Assembly: GCA_023205875.1 (NCBI GenBank)
Contig: CP060754.1
Location: forward strand, 620,001 to 684,000
DNA from: Chloropicon primus
Taxonomy: Eukaryota; Chlorophyta; Chloropicophyceae; Chloropicales; Chloropicaceae
Direction of reading: 5' to 3'
Length of the DNA stretch: 64,000 bases
How positions within the stretch are numbered: the first letter of the stretch is position 1; every line of letters starts with the position of its first letter. The notes under the pieces are model-generated. The model worked only from the letters and a program-made list of their open reading frames with translations, searched no databases and was not told the DNA's origin. The position numbers and the translations under genes are program-made. Positions 18,181 to 26,229 of this stretch are shown here, in pieces.

Positions 18181-19058
18181 TTACGCGGACGCCGTAACCG
18201 CAGTATTCCCGCCGAGGCGAAAGGCCTTCTTTAAGAATTGAGCTGACAGCTTCAATATGCACTTGCCACCCAAGAGGCTGCCCATGCATCCTCCCATGAT
18301 CCACCCCTTCAGCAGCACGAACCCAGAGGCCTGCAAGGCTAACCTCGTGTACGCCGGCAGAAGCTTTCTGCTCACGCAAGCGAGGGCCAAAGTCTGGGCG
18401 GCCTGGGGCTTGACCTCAAGCACCTGGATCACCGCCTGGAGCGGGAGCCCGGGGAAGAGGCAGAGCGGCGACGCCGCGACCTGCAGAGCGGAGCTCGCTG
18501 TCGTCTGGACCCCCCGAAGGCCGCCCAGAAGGAAGCAGCTCGAAAAGTACAGTTTCAGCAGGTGGACGCCATTCGGCACGACAACGCCGTTGTCGTGGAA
18601 GTGGCGAGGGAGCACGTACTTTAGTGGAGAAGACGAGAAAGGGAGAGGGAAAAAATAATCAGCACCGACGAAAGCTTTGACGACCCAGCGCTTCGTGGCT
18701 CGTTCACCGTTACCTTCTCCAAACAGATGGGGCACACCTCGCTCTTTTGAGACACCGCGCACCAGTACAGCAAGCACTTCTCGTGGACGTGCTCATTCGT
18801 GCCCTTGCAGGCGCAGGGCGATATGAAAACGCTCTTGGACTCTCTGTCGACCGCCGCGCGTTTCCTTCTCGAGGGCCGGAGCTTCCTCCTCGCCACGTCC
18901 ATCGCCCTCGTCCACGCCGAATCCATAAGCGTCCAGTCGGGGCTTCGACAGCTACAGCTCGCGAGGCCATCCTCAACGACCTGAGGCACCGAGGTGCCGA
19001 GGCAGAACCTGCAAACCCTCTTTCCGGAACCCTTCGCCTCCTCGACCTTCCCCTCCAT
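18181..19058 (-). CDS. RING-CH (MARCH-type) zinc-finger protein, two exons
   Basis: The exons are 19058-18714 and 18618-18181, giving 260 residues. The intron of 95 nt has GTAACG and TAAAG borders and joins ICLEK to YVLPRHF in frame. The N-terminal half holds a RING-CH-type cysteine pattern: CRFCLG, then FISPCACKGTNEHVHEKC, a W four residues into LLYWCAV, and VCPICLEK. A 45-residue insertion separates the first Cys pair from the rest, longer than usual. MARCH-type proteins are membrane E3 ubiquitin ligases. The C-terminal half has moderately hydrophobic stretches (LLKLYFSSCFLLGGL and LCLFPGLPLQAVIQVL) that could be membrane-associated. It is divergent to the Fanzor gene with 193 bp between the ATGs. 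Confidence 0.75.
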
Positions 19059-19251
19059 CGCCGTCGTCAATGACTCCTCCTCGCCCGATATCGATATCCA
19101 TCGGTGGGATTCCAGTGTATACCAGTTTGGTCACACCCAAAGGACAACCCACAAAACGTTTTCTCGTTCTCACTTGCTGGACAAGGCACTGGTAAAAAAA
19201 CTAGCCTCGCGAGAGGAAGGGAGGAGGACGCCGAGTGAAACCCTAGCAGTC

Positions 19252-21420
19252 ATGGCGCGATCAGGGAAGCGCCGTAAGAAAAAGGAGAAGCAGGGGAGTG
19301 GCTCGACGAGTTCCACAAGGAGGTCGCACTCTGGCGAGAGTCATGCTCAGGGCGCTTCGAAGTCGGGGCAGGAGTCTCCGACGACGGAGCCGTTACGTCG
19401 GTTCTGGAATCAGGGCTTGCAGTTGCTCTACTCGTTGTGCCTGCTTCCTATCGCGGACGACCCCGCCTCTGCGGGTGAGGGTTCGAGCACGCCTCGCAAG
19501 AAGCGGGGGCGGAAGCGGAAGGAGAAGCCGCTGGACGACCCCGCCTCTGCTTTCGAGGAGGGTTCGAGCACGCCTCGCAAGAAGCGGGGGGGGAAGCGGA
19601 AGGGGAAGCCGCCGGAGGCGGCTTCCTCTGCGGGTGAGAGTTCGAGCTCGTCAGGCAAGCCTCGCAAGAAGCCTCGCAAGAAGGGCAAGAAGAAGAACAA
19701 GAAGAAGGGTAAGAAGAAGAAGAACAAGAGGGGGAAGAAAGCAGGGAAGCAGCCGGGTGGCTTGGCGGACGACAGCGTGAAGAAGACCTGGTTCTCATCG
19801 ATCAAGAGAGAACTTGAAGAGGTAAAGTGTCCGAAGACGGGATGGAGGTCGTGCTTGAACCTTCCAGAAGATTCTGTGGTATCCGTCGAGACATTGCAGT
19901 CGCCCGCCAAAAGGAAGAGGGGGCAGAAACTGAAGACCTCCAAGCTATTGTCGGAGCGAACGGTGATACGGACGAGGAAGCTGAGGATGCGCTTGAACCC
20001 TGAGCAGGCGAAGTGCCTTTGCAACTGGATGGGAGCTGCGCGTTTCACATACAACAAGTGTTTGGAGGCGGTCAAGAAGGAGGGTTTTCCGCTGGTTTGG
20101 ACCGTCCTGCTGGACAGATTTGTGACGGCCAAACCGCGACGCCCTGAGGTCTTTGAGGGGCTGGAGAAAGAGCTGAAAGAAATCCAATGCTCTCCACGGC
20201 CATGGACAAAACAGGAGGCAGAGCTTTTCGCGGCCAGAGAGAAGAGACTCGAGAGCCAAATTGGAGGCAGACGATTTCGCGCCGAAGTGGCCAAGGACCG
20301 GGACTACGTTAGCGGGGCCTTTGTAAATCAGAAGCATCCTTGGCTGAAGGATACCCCCTGTGCCATCAGACAAGCTGCCGTGCGAAGTCTCATCAAGGCA
20401 TGGGATTCGAACATCGCGAAGCAGGAAGCGATGAAGGAGCGCGGCGAGGAGAAGGGGCACCGCTTCGTTCTCAAGTATCGTCAACGTCAGCAACCGAGCT
20501 CTTGGACCATTGAAATTGATGCAAGAGAGTTAAAGAACGTGGAGACGATCGAAAGGCCAAACACGAGGCACAAGGATGACACCAAGCACAACAAACGACG
20601 CAAGTGGACCAAGCTGGAGGTGTTCAAGAAGAAGATGGCCGGCGGGCCCCTGTACTTGACGGAGGAGATCCCCGGGGGCAAGATCGAGGGTGCCGTGAAG
20701 ATCACAAGAAATCGCCTTGGGCAGTTCCACATGCACATTCCCATCGCGACGCCATGGGATCGCCTGCCACCCCTGAAGCCTGAGAACAAGCGGAAGGTTG
20801 TCGCCCTGGATCCGGGAGTCAGGACCTTTCAGACGTCGTACTCGCCGCAAGAAGGCGTCGGGGAGTATGCCAAGGGCGAGCGAGGCTTCGCGAGGCTGTT
20901 CAACCTCTGCTGGAGGATTGATGAGATCATTTCCGAGCGCAAAGACCCAAAGGTGAAGCTCCCTTACCTCGACCGCCGCGACTTGAAGAGACAGCAATAC
21001 GCCTGCATGGAGAAAATTCGAGGTCTGACGAACGAGCTTCACAAAAAGGTAGCCAACGATCTATGCAGGAGGTTCGACACAATCCTCCTCCCGGAGTTCA
21101 AGTCCCAAGACATGGTGAAGAAGAACAACAACGGGAGACGCCGAGTGATCAGGAAGAAGACGGCTCGCACGCTCTTGACGTTGAGGCACTATGCGTTCAG
21201 AACGTTCTTGGCTTCCAAGGTGCTCTTGCACGGCAGTGAGCTGGCGATCGTGACGGAGGAGTACACCTCCAAGACCTGTGGCAGGTGCGGACACATCAAG
21301 GACAACCTGGGTGGAGCAGAGGTGTACAAGTGCCAGAAGTGTGGCTTCAAGTGCGGTCGGGATGTGAACGGGGCACGCAACGTCCTCCTGAAGCACTTGC
21401 GTCAACCAAAAAGTGTGTAA
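19252..21420 (+). CDS. Fanzor: Fanzor: eukaryotic TnpB-like RNA-guided nuclease, apparently intact
   Basis: 722 residues from the ATG at 19252 (MARSGKRRKK); the frame is open upstream to 18994 but overlaps the divergent gene. Residues about 1-225 form a Lys/Arg/Ser-rich extension with imperfect tandem repeats, likely nuclear-targeting. The TnpB core follows: TRKLRMRLNPEQAKCLCNWM (N-terminal OrfB-type block), ALDPGVRTFQTSYSP with catalytic D520 (RuvC-I), ILLPEFKSQD with E615 (RuvC-II), the zinc finger C676-x2-C679 and C694-x2-C697 in TSKTCGRCG and YKCQKCG, and GRDVNGARN with D704 (RuvC-III). All three acidic residues and four cysteines are present, and no stop or frameshift is seen. TnpB in bacteria is about 400 residues, so the extra length is the N-terminal arm plus an insertion. 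No recombinase or transposase gene lies next to it. Confidence 0.93.
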   Translation: MARSGKRRKKKEKQGSGSTSSTRRSHSGESHAQGASKSGQESPTTEPLRRFWNQGLQLLYSLCLLPIADDPASAGEGSSTPRKKRGRKRKEKPLDDPASAFEEGSSTPRKKRGGKRKGKPPEAASSAGESSSSSGKPRKKPRKKGKKKNKKKGKKKKNKRGKKAGKQPGGLADDSVKKTWFSSIKRELEEVKCPKTGWRSCLNLPEDSVVSVETLQSPAKRKRGQKLKTSKLLSERTVIRTRKLRMRLNPEQAKCLCNWMGAARFTYNKCLEAVKKEGFPLVWTVLLDRFVTAKPRRPEVFEGLEKELKEIQCSPRPWTKQEAELFAAREKRLESQIGGRRFRAEVAKDRDYVSGAFVNQKHPWLKDTPCAIRQAAVRSLIKAWDSNIAKQEAMKERGEEKGHRFVLKYRQRQQPSSWTIEIDARELKNVETIERPNTRHKDDTKHNKRRKWTKLEVFKKKMAGGPLYLTEEIPGGKIEGAVKITRNRLGQFHMHIPIATPWDRLPPLKPENKRKVVALDPGVRTFQTSYSPQEGVGEYAKGERGFARLFNLCWRIDEIISERKDPKVKLPYLDRRDLKRQQYACMEKIRGLTNELHKKVANDLCRRFDTILLPEFKSQDMVKKNNNGRRRVIRKKTARTLLTLRHYAFRTFLASKVLLHGSELAIVTEEYTSKTCGRCGHIKDNLGGAEVYKCQKCGFKCGRDVNGARNVLLKHLRQPKSV
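19456..19640 (+). repeat. Tandem repeat inside the Fanzor N-terminal coding region
   Basis: A unit of about 78-81 bp starting GACCCCGCCTCTGC begins at about 19460 and 19538, with a degenerate third start near 19620. It encodes repeats like GSSTPRKKRGRKRKEKP. The copies differ at scattered bases and by one in-frame codon change. Confidence 0.8.
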
Positions 21421-21824
21421 CTCCTCAGGGTTGCACATACGTTTGTTAGTACGGGCTGCCGTGCGTGGGCGGAAGTGTTCGTTCATGTACGGTGGAATGG
21501 TCGTGGTAGGGCTGAATTACCCTGCCGAGAAACTTACAAACTCGGTGAAACGACCTTTGCAGAAAACTAACAGGTAAGTTGTGGCCGGTCTCCTTCTCTC
21601 CGTGTTTCTCTCTTTCAGTGGAAAGGAGAACTTGCCTTTGTGCTTCCAGTATTGACTGTGATTTCCCTACCGTCCTTTCGTGACTTTTCTGTGTGCTTTG
21701 CCAGCAAGGACAAAAAAACTTAAGCTCCTCTGTGTGGTGGTAGAAAACCGGCATGAATTACACAAATGAATGGCTTCACAAAAATGACGTGCGTGCACCA
21801 GGAGCGCGACTTGGGTCTTTTCCT
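21421..21824 (+). ncRNA. Candidate Fanzor guide (omega) RNA region downstream of the stop
   Basis: This is 404 bp with no supported ORF. By eye it contains hairpins: 21449-21464 (6 bp stem with one G-U pair, GCTG loop), 21505-21526 (7 bp stem with one G-U pair, 8 nt loop) and an overlapping 5 bp stem 21525-21529 with 21541-21545. TnpB and Fanzor guide RNAs typically overlap or follow the 3' end of the nuclease ORF. Pairing alone is weak evidence, so this is only a candidate. Some of the region may simply be 3' UTR, with splice-like GTAAGT and TTTCAG at 21572-21619. Confidence 0.35.
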
Positions 21825-23553: not shown

Positions 23554-26229
23554 CTATTGTTGCTCGTTGATACCATACCGCTCGAGGATGGAGCGAGCCT
23601 CGGCCTCGCTGCAGCCCTTTCGGACAATCTTGTAGACTCCCTCCTGGGTCAGGTCGATTATGGTGGAGCCGGAAGTTCCCGCGTTCAGGCTGCCCCCGTC
23701 GTACACGTTGGCGCACTTGGACCAGATCTCTCGAAAGTGACCCACGGCCGTGCTGCTCTGGCCCCCGCTGATGTTCGCGCTGGTCAGCGCGATGGCGAAA
23801 CCGAGTTGGGACACCACGCCCCGGACGAAGGATGACTCTGGCACCCGGATTCCCACCGTCTTGGTGCCCGGGTTGAGGTTCTTGCTCAGCTCGGAGTCCT
23901 CCTTCCTGTTCAGCAGCAGGGTGTAAGGGCCAGGCAAGAACTCCTCGACCAGGCCCCCTGGGAGGTGGGACGCCTCCCCGTACCTCCCGATCTCCGAGGC
24001 GTGGGCGATGCAGAGAGCGAGAGGGAGGAACGCCGGACGTTGCTTGGCGTCGTAAATTCTGTCGATCCCCTCGTCGCTCGAAGCCGCCGCGGCCACCCCA
24101 TAGATCGTGTCCGTGGGGACTGCTATTATCTTTCCTTGCCTCAGCGCGTCCGCCGCCTTTCCCTCGTTCCACCGGCTCGCGGGGAGAGGCATGACCTCCC
24201 TGTCTTCCGGCGGTGGCCACGCCAAGGGCACGCCCCCCGTGGCCGTGGCGCCAGACGCGTCCAGAAAAGAAAAGTCGGCCACAAGCGACACGTGGTCCGA
24301 GGGGAAGGCCTGGGACGGCAAGTACCCCTGCTTCAGGACCCGGCCTTCGCTGTCCACGTCCTCTTCCCTGCACAAGTCCCTCTCCAGCGGCAACGGCGCA
24401 AAATCTTCCAGCTTCATTCCCTGGGGGTTGAAAAATATGTAGTCCAAAGCCCCGATGTACCCCTTGACGTAGTTTGTGAAGGACGAACGCAGCCCGTCCG
24501 CACTCGTCAGCGGGCCGAATGGATTCTTGAGATAGAACCCGGTGACCGCCTCGCCGCCAAGCGCGCTGCCCGCGTCGAGCTCGTACTTGAGCTCCTCGTC
24601 CTGCTCGAAGCCCGCCTCTTCGTCCCGGCCCTTCCAGGAGAACCTCAAGCAGTCCAGCCACTCGTAGTGCTCCCTAGACACGGAGCCTTTGGCCAAGAGC
24701 TCGATCGCGCCCGTGTCAGGCTCGCTGTTGAGGTCGCCGCAGATCAGGACAACACAGTCTCCCAGGAGCTTGTGGCGGGACAGCAGGTCTGACGCGTACG
24801 CCAGCATCACCGCAACAGACAGGGACCGCACGTGACTTGCACCCGGGTGAAAGTAGAGGTGCGTGTTCGTGACCAGTATCTTCCTCTTTGAGTCGTTCTC
24901 CTCGAGGAGCACGAACTGGGCGGCCGTGGAGATCTTCTTCAAGATCGCAGCGAGATTCGGGTCACTGGCAATGGCGCGCCCCACTCCCACCCCGAGGTGC
25001 TGCTCCAACCACTGCTCGTCCCCAAAGTAGTCGCGGATGTGGATGGATTCCTTGCCGATTGCGCTCAGCCTGCCGGATTTCCAGAACAAGGCGCAACCTT
25101 CCGCTTTGGACGTCTTGGGCCCGAAGAAGCCGGAGTAGCCCATGGATTCGAGACGCGGAGACCAAAACTTGTCGTACAAGTACGTGTCCATCTCCTGCAA
25201 GCAGACCACGTCGCTCGCAAAGCCTCCGATCTCAAAGAGGGAAAGCTGCTGCCTGTAACCGGTATCCAGGTGCTCCGGCGCAATCTCGGGGAACAGGACG
25301 TCCCTGGCATAGTCCGTCTTCGAGTACACGTCCGCGAGAATGTTGTATGTCATGATTCGCAGACTGGTGTCCGGCTTGGATCGTGCCATCCTCTCGTGCC
25401 TAGCTTTCATGAACTCCAGGCGAGGCGCCCCCATCACGGGCTCCACCGAGACGGCTTCCCTCGGCTCCCCCAGCCTGCCCCCGCAGGCCGGCTCGCACTT
25501 GATCTTGATCCTTTTCCCAACGTGCTGCTCGTCGACGGCGAGGTCTGGCTTGCCCTCCGCGACGAGCTCCCACCCCTTCTCGCTCTCCACGTACCAGAGC
25601 CACTTGCAGTCGCCCCGGGAGCAAAACTCCAGCCTCGCGTAAGGGGACGTCACGATGTCCCCCGCCACGACCCTTTTGGGCAGAGATATCTCGCTGCACG
25701 CGGGCAGGTTGGTCTCTATCCTGAGCTTCTTCTCCAGCAGACCGGCGTTCTCTTCCTTGAGGGTGTACTTGAGCTCGAGCGTGTATCCCGTCTGCCACGC
25801 TTCCGAGTTCGTCGTGGTCTCGGGCACGGGCTTCCCAATGCGGTCCAGGATCGTGCAGCTCACGCCGAGATCGGCTGCGACGTCCGACGCCGCGGCCGAG
25901 TGCTCCCCCCTTGACTTCTTCCTCTCTCGACCGCCCTGGTTCCCCAGGCAAGCCGACGAGACCGTCCGCCGAATTCTCTCCAGGGGCTTTGCTATCGCCT
26001 CGTCCTTCTTGCGGCACATGTTCCGCATACGACCCGCCGGCGGAAGCGCCACTTGGATCGTCATCTCGTCCTCTCCATCGGCCTTCCGCACAAGGACGCG
26101 GTCCTCGCAAGTAGCCTGGAGTCCCACAGCACTCGCGAGTGCCCCCCTGTTCACGCCCCCGTTCGGCACCTTTCCCACCATACCTTTCGCTCCTCTCCCG
26201 CTCAGCCGATTGCAGAGTCCAAATAACAT
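23554..26229 (-). CDS. Fusion of PDE12-like 2'-phosphodiesterase (EEP) with YRDC/TsaC threonylcarbamoyl-AMP synthase
   Basis: One uninterrupted ORF of 891 residues. Residues about 150-265 match the PDE12 N-terminal domain (CKWLWYVESEKGWELVAEGK, then VGKRIKIKCEP). Residues about 290-665 form a CCR4/nocturnin-type EEP domain: MTYNILADVY, VVCLQEMDTYLYDKFW, GYSGFFGPKTSKAEGCALF, CGDLNSEPDTGA and PSDHVSLVADFSF carry the expected metal and nucleophile-activating residues. Residues about 682-891 form a YrdC/Sua5 domain: GKIIAVPTDTIYGVAAAA, YDAKQRPAFLPLALCIA with the K-x-R motif, GPYTLLLNRK, VGIRVPESSFV and ALTSANISGGQSS. PDE12 trims 3' tails of mitochondrial RNAs and YRDC makes the t6A37 precursor, so both parts act on RNA or tRNA. 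A basic N terminus may target an organelle. Confidence 0.9.
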   Translation of the reverse strand: MLFGLCNRLSGRGAKGMVGKVPNGGVNRGALASAVGLQATCEDRVLVRKADGEDEMTIQVALPPAGRMRNMCRKKDEAIAKPLERIRRTVSSACLGNQGGRERKKSRGEHSAAASDVAADLGVSCTILDRIGKPVPETTTNSEAWQTGYTLELKYTLKEENAGLLEKKLRIETNLPACSEISLPKRVVAGDIVTSPYARLEFCSRGDCKWLWYVESEKGWELVAEGKPDLAVDEQHVGKRIKIKCEPACGGRLGEPREAVSVEPVMGAPRLEFMKARHERMARSKPDTSLRIMTYNILADVYSKTDYARDVLFPEIAPEHLDTGYRQQLSLFEIGGFASDVVCLQEMDTYLYDKFWSPRLESMGYSGFFGPKTSKAEGCALFWKSGRLSAIGKESIHIRDYFGDEQWLEQHLGVGVGRAIASDPNLAAILKKISTAAQFVLLEENDSKRKILVTNTHLYFHPGASHVRSLSVAVMLAYASDLLSRHKLLGDCVVLICGDLNSEPDTGAIELLAKGSVSREHYEWLDCLRFSWKGRDEEAGFEQDEELKYELDAGSALGGEAVTGFYLKNPFGPLTSADGLRSSFTNYVKGYIGALDYIFFNPQGMKLEDFAPLPLERDLCREEDVDSEGRVLKQGYLPSQAFPSDHVSLVADFSFLDASGATATGGVPLAWPPPEDREVMPLPASRWNEGKAADALRQGKIIAVPTDTIYGVAAAASSDEGIDRIYDAKQRPAFLPLALCIAHASEIGRYGEASHLPGGLVEEFLPGPYTLLLNRKEDSELSKNLNPGTKTVGIRVPESSFVRGVVSQLGFAIALTSANISGGQSSTAVGHFREIWSKCANVYDGGSLNAGTSGSTIIDLTQEGVYKIVRKGCSEAEARSILERYGINEQQ

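Follow-up and report, generated by a model that had tools for sequence, protein, structure and literature searches.

A Fanzor2 gene of Chloropicon primus as the probable cargo of a recently active cut-and-paste transposon, with a conserved structured RNA at its stop codon

Overview of the locus

The window, a stretch of 64,000 nucleotides from the green alga Chloropicon primus, harbors an uninterrupted open reading frame of 722 codons, from an ATG at 19252 to a stop codon ending at 21420, which is embedded in a truncated copy of a transposon and is directly followed by a structured RNA (Table 1). Homology to other copies of this transposon starts at 19103 and stops at or near 21697, with unrelated DNA beyond. 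Complete copies extend 21 bp further to the left and 31 bp further to the right, and the window copy occurs in neither of the genome-wide lists of left and right ends compiled at ≤3 mismatches. Because both transposon ends are missing, the window copy is probably immobile.

Table 1. Features of the Fanzor-bearing element in the window (positions are those of the window)
Feature	Position	Strand	Basis
Fanzor2* transposon copy, truncated	19103..21697	+	homology limits against fetched copies; absence from end lists
Remnant of the left end region of the carrier, common to short Fanzor-less elements	19103..19187	+	matches 23-109 of the left-end query
Fanzor2 ORF, 722 aa	19252..21420	+	ORF reading, genome protein search, Pfam, alignment
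Basic arm (codons 1-225), rich in Lys/Arg, with its repeat at about 19455-19672	19252..19926	+	copy comparison, alignment
D520-P521-G522, RuvC-I motif DPG	20809..20817	+	invariant in 29/29
E615, catalytic residue of the sequence-only reading, not conserved	21094..21096	+	E in 12/29
E669, RuvC-II glutamate at the Fanzor position (E_alt)	21256..21258	+	invariant in 29/29; position rule in the available text of PMC10711439
Zinc finger C676/C679/C694/C697	21277..21342	+	Pfam, alignment
D704, RuvC-III aspartate	21361..21363	+	alignment
Structured RNA that starts with the stop-codon hairpin and reaches AACTAACAGG; probable guide-RNA (reRNA/omegaRNA) scaffold	21411..21574	+	folds, alignment
Intron-like stretch GTAAGT...TTTCAG (putative), beginning where a guide would lie	21574..21618	+	copy comparison
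Right region of the carrier, common to short Fanzor-less elements, terminal 31 bp missing	21600..21697	+	right-end search

Two features of the surroundings may be recorded. The junction at 19103 lies 33 bp upstream of the start of an ORF with a RINGv domain (18621-19070, minus strand). Further along, a single ORF of 891 aa on the minus strand (23554-26229) joins a PDE12-like N-terminal region to Exo_endo_phos and Sua5/YrdC domains in an unusual-looking fusion.

The Fanzor protein, its catalytic residues and its type

Pfam searches with the 722-aa protein recovered the TnpB-type domains Cas12f1-like_TNB (E 8.6e-18) and HTH_OrfB_IS605 (E 2.1e-6), with OrfB_IS605 matched only at E 0.05, short of its cut-off; the NCBIfam model guided_TnpB was matched at E 1.9e-26 with 93.3 bits, slightly short of its cut-off of 100. 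Together with the uninterrupted frame, these matches bear out the intact Fanzor nuclease that had been read from the sequence alone. In the PDB, the top chain by sequence is the TnpB-like protein L79 (9b0l, E 8.6e-20), presumably a mimivirus protein belonging to an IS607-type element. It was also the top chain (E 1e-54, 189 bits) with a profile of 29 sequences, namely the window Fanzor and 28 relatives picked from the best 120 of 843 proteins at E ≤ 0.001; none of the 26 PDB chains reached by this profile at E ≤ 0.001 is named Fanzor. Outside the motifs, L79 and the window protein are, by eye, about 30% alike or less, and L79 has no long basic arm of the kind seen in the window Fanzor.

Inspection of the alignment of these 29 sequences shows that D520, D704 and the cysteines C676, C679, C694 and C697 are invariant throughout, as is R703, which with D704 forms the RD that follows the C4 zinc finger. 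D520, D704 and the four cysteines are also kept in all 19 long-ORF copies among the 20 fetched from the genome. The two CxxC pairs and two of the three RuvC residues named in the sequence-only reading thus stand, but the third, E615, does not: its column has E in just 12 of the 29 sequences and V, A, I, S, K, T or Q otherwise. Instead, all 29 sequences have the glutamate E669 (in TEEYTSKTC), which precedes the zinc finger by six residues. According to the available text of PMC10711439, the Fanzor fingerprint combines a RuvC-I DPG with a glutamate, termed E_alt, at this same distance before the finger. Given this invariance and its E_alt placement, the alignment identifies E669, not E615, as the catalytic glutamate. 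In the earlier reading, the glutamate was misplaced and the two aspartates were correct, and the call of a competent-looking Fanzor in a green alga was right. The correction from E615 to E669 matters when a catalytically dead control is made.

As to the choice between Fanzor1 and Fanzor2, previously left open, Fanzor2 is the assignment of PMC10711439, which in its available text places the Fanzors of C. primus in this type; the PDB search itself names no Fanzor chain. The same text gives a TDG motif in the WED domain as a mark of Fanzor1, and on reading the 722 residues no TDG motif was seen.

The N-terminal 225 residues contain 42 lysines and 21 arginines and bear a repeat unit, present in two copies in the window Fanzor and, by reading, in three in the copy at locus L026. 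Across 19 genomic copies, the pooled pairwise dN/dS of this arm is 0.96 versus 0.54 for the core, and in the 28 relatives the arm is replaced by 1-224 residues. Hence, the arm is basic and repeat-bearing as first described, with the qualification that it appears to vary about neutrally among copies and to be close to free of constraint.

A young, multicopy transposon family

A protein search of the genome (17,584,162 bases in 20 contigs) gave at least 62 matches; visual grouping of those listed yielded about 30 copies and additional fragments, and among them 16 stop-free copies, the window included, span residues 1-722 at 96-100% identity. Twenty copies were fetched with their flanks for comparison. 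The complete element is about 2.64 kb long (2641 bp at L012) and runs from TGTT to AACA, with terminal inverted repeats that are short and degenerate (TGTTGGAGG versus TGTTATGGTG, by eye). A genome search for the end patterns at ≤3 mismatches gave 28 left and 26 right matches, and none for the reversed controls; three matches in each list fall in elements lacking a Fanzor. An exact 5-bp target duplication was found at 17 of 22 two-ended places; one of the 17 is a short element, and the other 16 are among the 21 two-ended Fanzor copies. Among the five two-ended Fanzor copies without it, L010 has an altered right end, L051 has a target match longer than 5 bp inside a local repeat, and L026, L028 and L049 give no exact 5-bp match. 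In 14 of the 17 sites the duplication overlaps, by reading and with a sliding offset, a CAG, usually as ACAG (background 0.108 per 8-mer; P about 2e-11, for an observation made post hoc and with that sliding offset).

The ORF extends for at least 695 aa from the same ATG in 19 of the 20 fetched copies, the exception being L025, which stops at 174. These long ORFs, together with the ends, the 5-bp duplications and a core dN/dS indicative of mild constraint only, mark the family, on the evidence of its sequences, as young, mobile and under mild protein constraint. A decayed fragment elsewhere (G000 C14:513915-514514; 58% identity over residues 299-503, two stops) may derive from an older Fanzor lineage.

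These observations alter the earlier picture in several respects. What had looked like a lone gene is one of about 30 copies, a multicopy transposon whose ends had escaped notice. The reported absence of a neighboring transposase holds, in that none lies inside the element. The alternative of a solo mobile element is apt for the family, which is mobile and has no transposase of its own, but not for the window copy, which lacks both ends. The check then proposed, by copy number and dN/dS, was made within this one genome, with the results given above. Domestication is not supported: a host-kept gene would be expected alone or fixed, apart from any mobile family; instead, about 30 near-identical copies were found, recent, most of the two-ended ones with exact 5-bp duplications, and intact beside broken ones. 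A narrower version, in which only the window copy lost its ends and was retained by the host as a nuclease, could draw on the fact that its ORF and scaffold are intact though both ends are gone. Yet it is 98-99% identical to the mobile copies and thus too young to show any constraint of its own, and we consider its domestication very improbable.

The end searches additionally recovered four short Fanzor-less elements (L029, L030, L031 and one inside L026) and a lone right end (L032). In the short elements, shared sequence reaches at most about 117 bases on the left and 130 on the right, and neither Fanzor nor scaffold lies between; their interior was found by genome search in those four only. 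The terminal right end is absent from two of them, and L029 has a 5-bp duplication. The short element at L026 (G000 C5:341400-349700) has no terminal right end and sits about 1.2 kb from a Fanzor copy, itself without a left end, in which the three-unit arm repeat occurs.

No transposase sharing the element ends was found through the end searches, the short elements or domain searches with rve, RVT_2 and Resolvase. An origin of the TGTT...AACA ends from a retroviral-type integrase is not supported, as no rve domain was detected in the genome (controls matched in 6 of 14); the RVT_2 (Copia-like) search matched neither the genome nor the controls. The Resolvase search led to a repeat of about 3.2 kb at L064-L067 (G000 C2:316320, C3:1404945, C16:68745, C9:638220), 97.8-98.5% identical to L064, whose protein, at most about 1000 aa long, contains two stretches resembling Resolvase (serine recombinase). 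As far as seen, this long two-Resolvase protein, which has no NCBIfam match, is not an IS607 TnpA. One of its loci lies about 3 kb from the solo scaffold locus L062 described below, with no solo locus seen near the remaining three.

A conserved structured RNA at the stop codon

Directly 3' of the stop codon lies a conserved structured RNA that the sequence-only reading had missed, probably a guide-RNA scaffold, which ends about 150 bp inside the transposon. A scaffold model, which includes the window sequence, matches the window at 21411-21573 with 140.5 bits. Among 20 copies, nucleotide diversity is 0.0044 in the scaffold versus 0.0158 in the core, with variable sites in 2 of 162 columns as against 83 of 1494. 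The scaffold folds better than its shuffles (L012, z -4.8; a 139-nt portion of L009, z -6.6).

In an alignment of 11 scaffolds (three Fanzor copies and eight solo loci), the four-helix structure named from it has 92.4% of 317 cells paired, compared with 34-42% for slid versions of the structure. Changes on both sides of a pair occur in 13 cells versus 5.5 in shuffles; neither the number of double-change pairs (5 versus 4.2) nor that of pair types (16 versus 18.3) is above the shuffles, so that few positions carry the covariation. The scaffold has no match in Rfam. Of 71 loci of viral relatives, 31 were searched with the scaffold model and gave no match, and the scaffold core word is absent from the viral contigs. 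A scaffold placed after the stop codon and more conserved than the protein core was not found in the running text of the open-licence PMC papers searched.

Solo scaffold loci

Genome searches recovered nine distinct loci, L033 to L040 and L061, that carry the scaffold without transposon ends; two further places are a duplicate of L040 (L062) and a wreck (L063). L033 consists of the scaffold alone, and the other eight start at about codon 630 to 678, thereby retaining the last 45-95 codons of the ORF. All run to a common AACTAAC(A)GG (AACTAGCGG in L037), beyond which the DNA is locus-specific. The scaffolds fall into class F (the Fanzor copies and L033), class A (L034-L037, L040 and L061) and class B (L038 and L039). 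Comparison between classes gives differences of 18-47% in the scaffold and 6-16% in the adjoining ORF end, and neither class A nor class B was seen attached to a complete ORF in the genome. No target duplications were detected at the solo loci (match at the own locus 3.3 versus 3.7 across loci), and none of the genome-wide transposon end matches falls inside the solo stretches. The left flank of L038 holds, on the minus strand and by eye, the end of an SMC-like ATPase gene that is broken where the Fanzor remnant starts. Solo loci of this kind were not found in the open-licence PMC literature, and the main text of the genome paper PMC12301720 has no match to Fanzor or TnpB.

One way to see these loci is as functional genes for guide RNAs, which would be taken up in trans by the Fanzor protein. 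Among 10 divergent fragments, eight retain nothing but the final 45-95 codons and the scaffold, a pattern with a chance of about 3e-6 if breakpoints were random and independent; this figure is too small, since L036, L039 and L035 share boundaries, as do L040 and L061, and are therefore not independent. The folds of the five solo scaffolds tested beat their shuffles (z -2.1 to -4.0). Further, L036 and L039, whose scaffolds fall into different classes, are preceded by leaders of about 80 bp that are 98% identical and have the same junction; found at these two places only, this leader is possibly a promoter or a left end. A precedent is provided by Spizellomyces, where, in the available text of PMC10432273, RNAs from ghost loci worked with the Fanzor protein. 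Against this, the closing helix of L061 has lost 8 bases, L063 is a wreck, and classes A and B, at their distance from the Fanzor scaffold, may not bind the protein. With regard to targets (14 bases, ≤2 mismatches, 303 kb), six of the nine putative solo guides matched nothing beyond their own locus or its duplicate, and those of L035, L039 and L061 had 6, 2 and 32 other matches, respectively. On balance, working guide genes seem unlikely.

We consider it more likely, and indeed fairly probable, that the solo loci are relics, left by 3'-anchored (one-ended) insertion or by the decay of IS607-type Fanzors. Broken copies do exist in this genome, and, relative to the Fanzor copies, the ORF remnants have more non-synonymous (7-12) than synonymous (2-5) codon changes. 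Moreover, the Fanzor1-bearing Helitrons of Chlamydomonas include, according to the available text of PMC3627910, 5'-truncated copies intact at the 3' end. Two observations fit such relics less well: unlike most of those truncated Chlamydomonas copies, the solo loci have no target duplications, and between most class A loci the scaffold differs less than the ORF remnant.

Position of the guide

Where the guide lies bears on what the nuclease could cut. As the solo loci share their end point, the ancestral IS607-type scaffold is suggested to have ended at AACTAAC(A)GG, with the flanking DNA as the guide. In the transposon-borne copies this point is placed about 150 bp inside the complete element, and the same-family 14 bases follow the scaffold in 28 of about 30 copies. 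The stretch that begins here, 45 nt long in the window and about 24 to 54 nt among copies by eye, looks like a short intron, although short for a spliceosomal one.

It is conceivable that the scaffold still ends at AACTAACAGG and that the guide is the fixed TAAGTWGKGGCCGG inside the transposon, in which case the element's own empty sites would go untargeted. All nine distinct solo loci lose homology at this very point, and the 14-mer has 28 exact copies in the genome, every one in a Fanzor copy; its one-mismatch matches (3) are not above the reversed control (7), and no target beyond chance was found for it by genome search. However, a nuclease guided in this manner would be useless for spreading the transposon, yet protein and scaffold are kept. 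Such an internal guide is also contradicted by the scaffold extension proposed for the Fanzor2*s in the available text of PMC10711439. We regard it as possible but tend to doubt it.

The extension proposed there (Yoon et al.) makes the TIR and the TSD part of the RNA scaffold. Accordingly, transcription would continue to the transposon end and the flanking DNA would serve as guide, whereby guides would stay matched to their insertion sites. The right end TAACA resembles, by eye, the ancestral terminus CTAACAGG. However, when five copies were folded through to 20 nt past the transposon end, TGTTAGT was in no case paired with the terminal TAACA, and the right-end region is also present in Fanzor-less elements and so needs no RNA role. 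In these five folds TGTTAGT is unpaired with AACTAACAG as well; pairing with neither partner, it leaves the long folds favoring neither placement of the guide. The extended scaffold has, in our estimate, not quite an even chance of being correct.

Relationship to known systems and general interpretation

The element itself is already known; new are the residue correction, the anatomy of the element and the solo loci. The capture of a Fanzor2 by a non-IS607 transposon is published for C. primus in PMC10711439 (Yoon et al. 2023), whose available text places the Fanzor2s of this species in a cut-and-paste transposon and calls them 'Fanzor2*'. By all signs, the family in the window is this published family, with the same species, nuclease class and cut-and-paste transposon, and likewise with TIRs and target duplications. 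An earlier study of strain CCMP1205 noted 25 members that resemble the transposases of IS605 (Lemieux et al. 2019, PMC6731263). Solo loci, scaffold classes and an internal scaffold end were not found in the available text of either paper.

Among more distant systems, Spu-1 of Spizellomyces (Saito et al. 2023, PMC10432273) likewise combines, in the text available, intact nuclease copies with guide-RNA loci lacking a gene. Spu-1 is, however, a Fanzor1 whose ghosts are flanked by similar inverted repeats; the nine solo loci of C. primus have a scaffold without a nuclease gene, as ghosts do, but neither flanking inverted repeats nor transposon ends. The CRe-1/2/3 Helitrons of Chlamydomonas (Bao and Jurka 2013, PMC3627910) share with the present family a green algal host and resemble the solo loci in their many 5'-truncated, 3'-intact copies. 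They differ, as far as the available text goes, in carrying a Fanzor1 of several exons in a Helitron and in the variable-length target duplications at the truncated copies.

The number of copies, their ends and 5-bp duplications, the long ORFs, the DPG motif with E669, the match to L79, the scaffold and the available account in PMC10711439 lead us to conclude that the gene in the window is very probably cargo of a recently active C. primus cut-and-paste transposon with a captured IS607-type Fanzor2 ('Fanzor2*'). The 3' transcript would be the guide-RNA scaffold and, loaded into the Fanzor protein, would direct cleavage of DNA matching the sequence past the scaffold. A transposase encoded elsewhere would move the element in trans, and breaks at insertion-free alleles would favor its copying in a mostly diploid alga. 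The window copy, keeping protein and scaffold and missing both ends, could supply the nuclease yet probably not be moved itself. Certain observations count against this explanation: the searches found no transposase with these ends, the double-change pairs and pair types of the scaffold do not exceed the shuffles, five of 21 two-ended copies are without an exact 5-bp duplication as measured, the core dN/dS of 0.54 amounts to mild constraint only, and the constant 14 bases after the scaffold are a misfit with a guide taken from each insertion site.

A further reading would split the guide RNA from the mobile nuclease, with the internal slot of the Fanzor2 copies frozen and matching these copies alone, and a few orphan loci of three classes doing the targeting; for two of these three classes no nuclease gene was found in the genome. 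We hold this to be quite unlikely, but if true, it would represent a eukaryotic trans-acting, multi-guide RNA-guided nuclease system built from transposon parts. According to the available text of PMC12301720, the C. primus genome is small, mostly diploid and assembled nearly telomere to telomere. Hence, this alga brings together, in a small genome, one young and intact Fanzor2 family, a scaffold with conservation and some covariation, and a set of solo loci.
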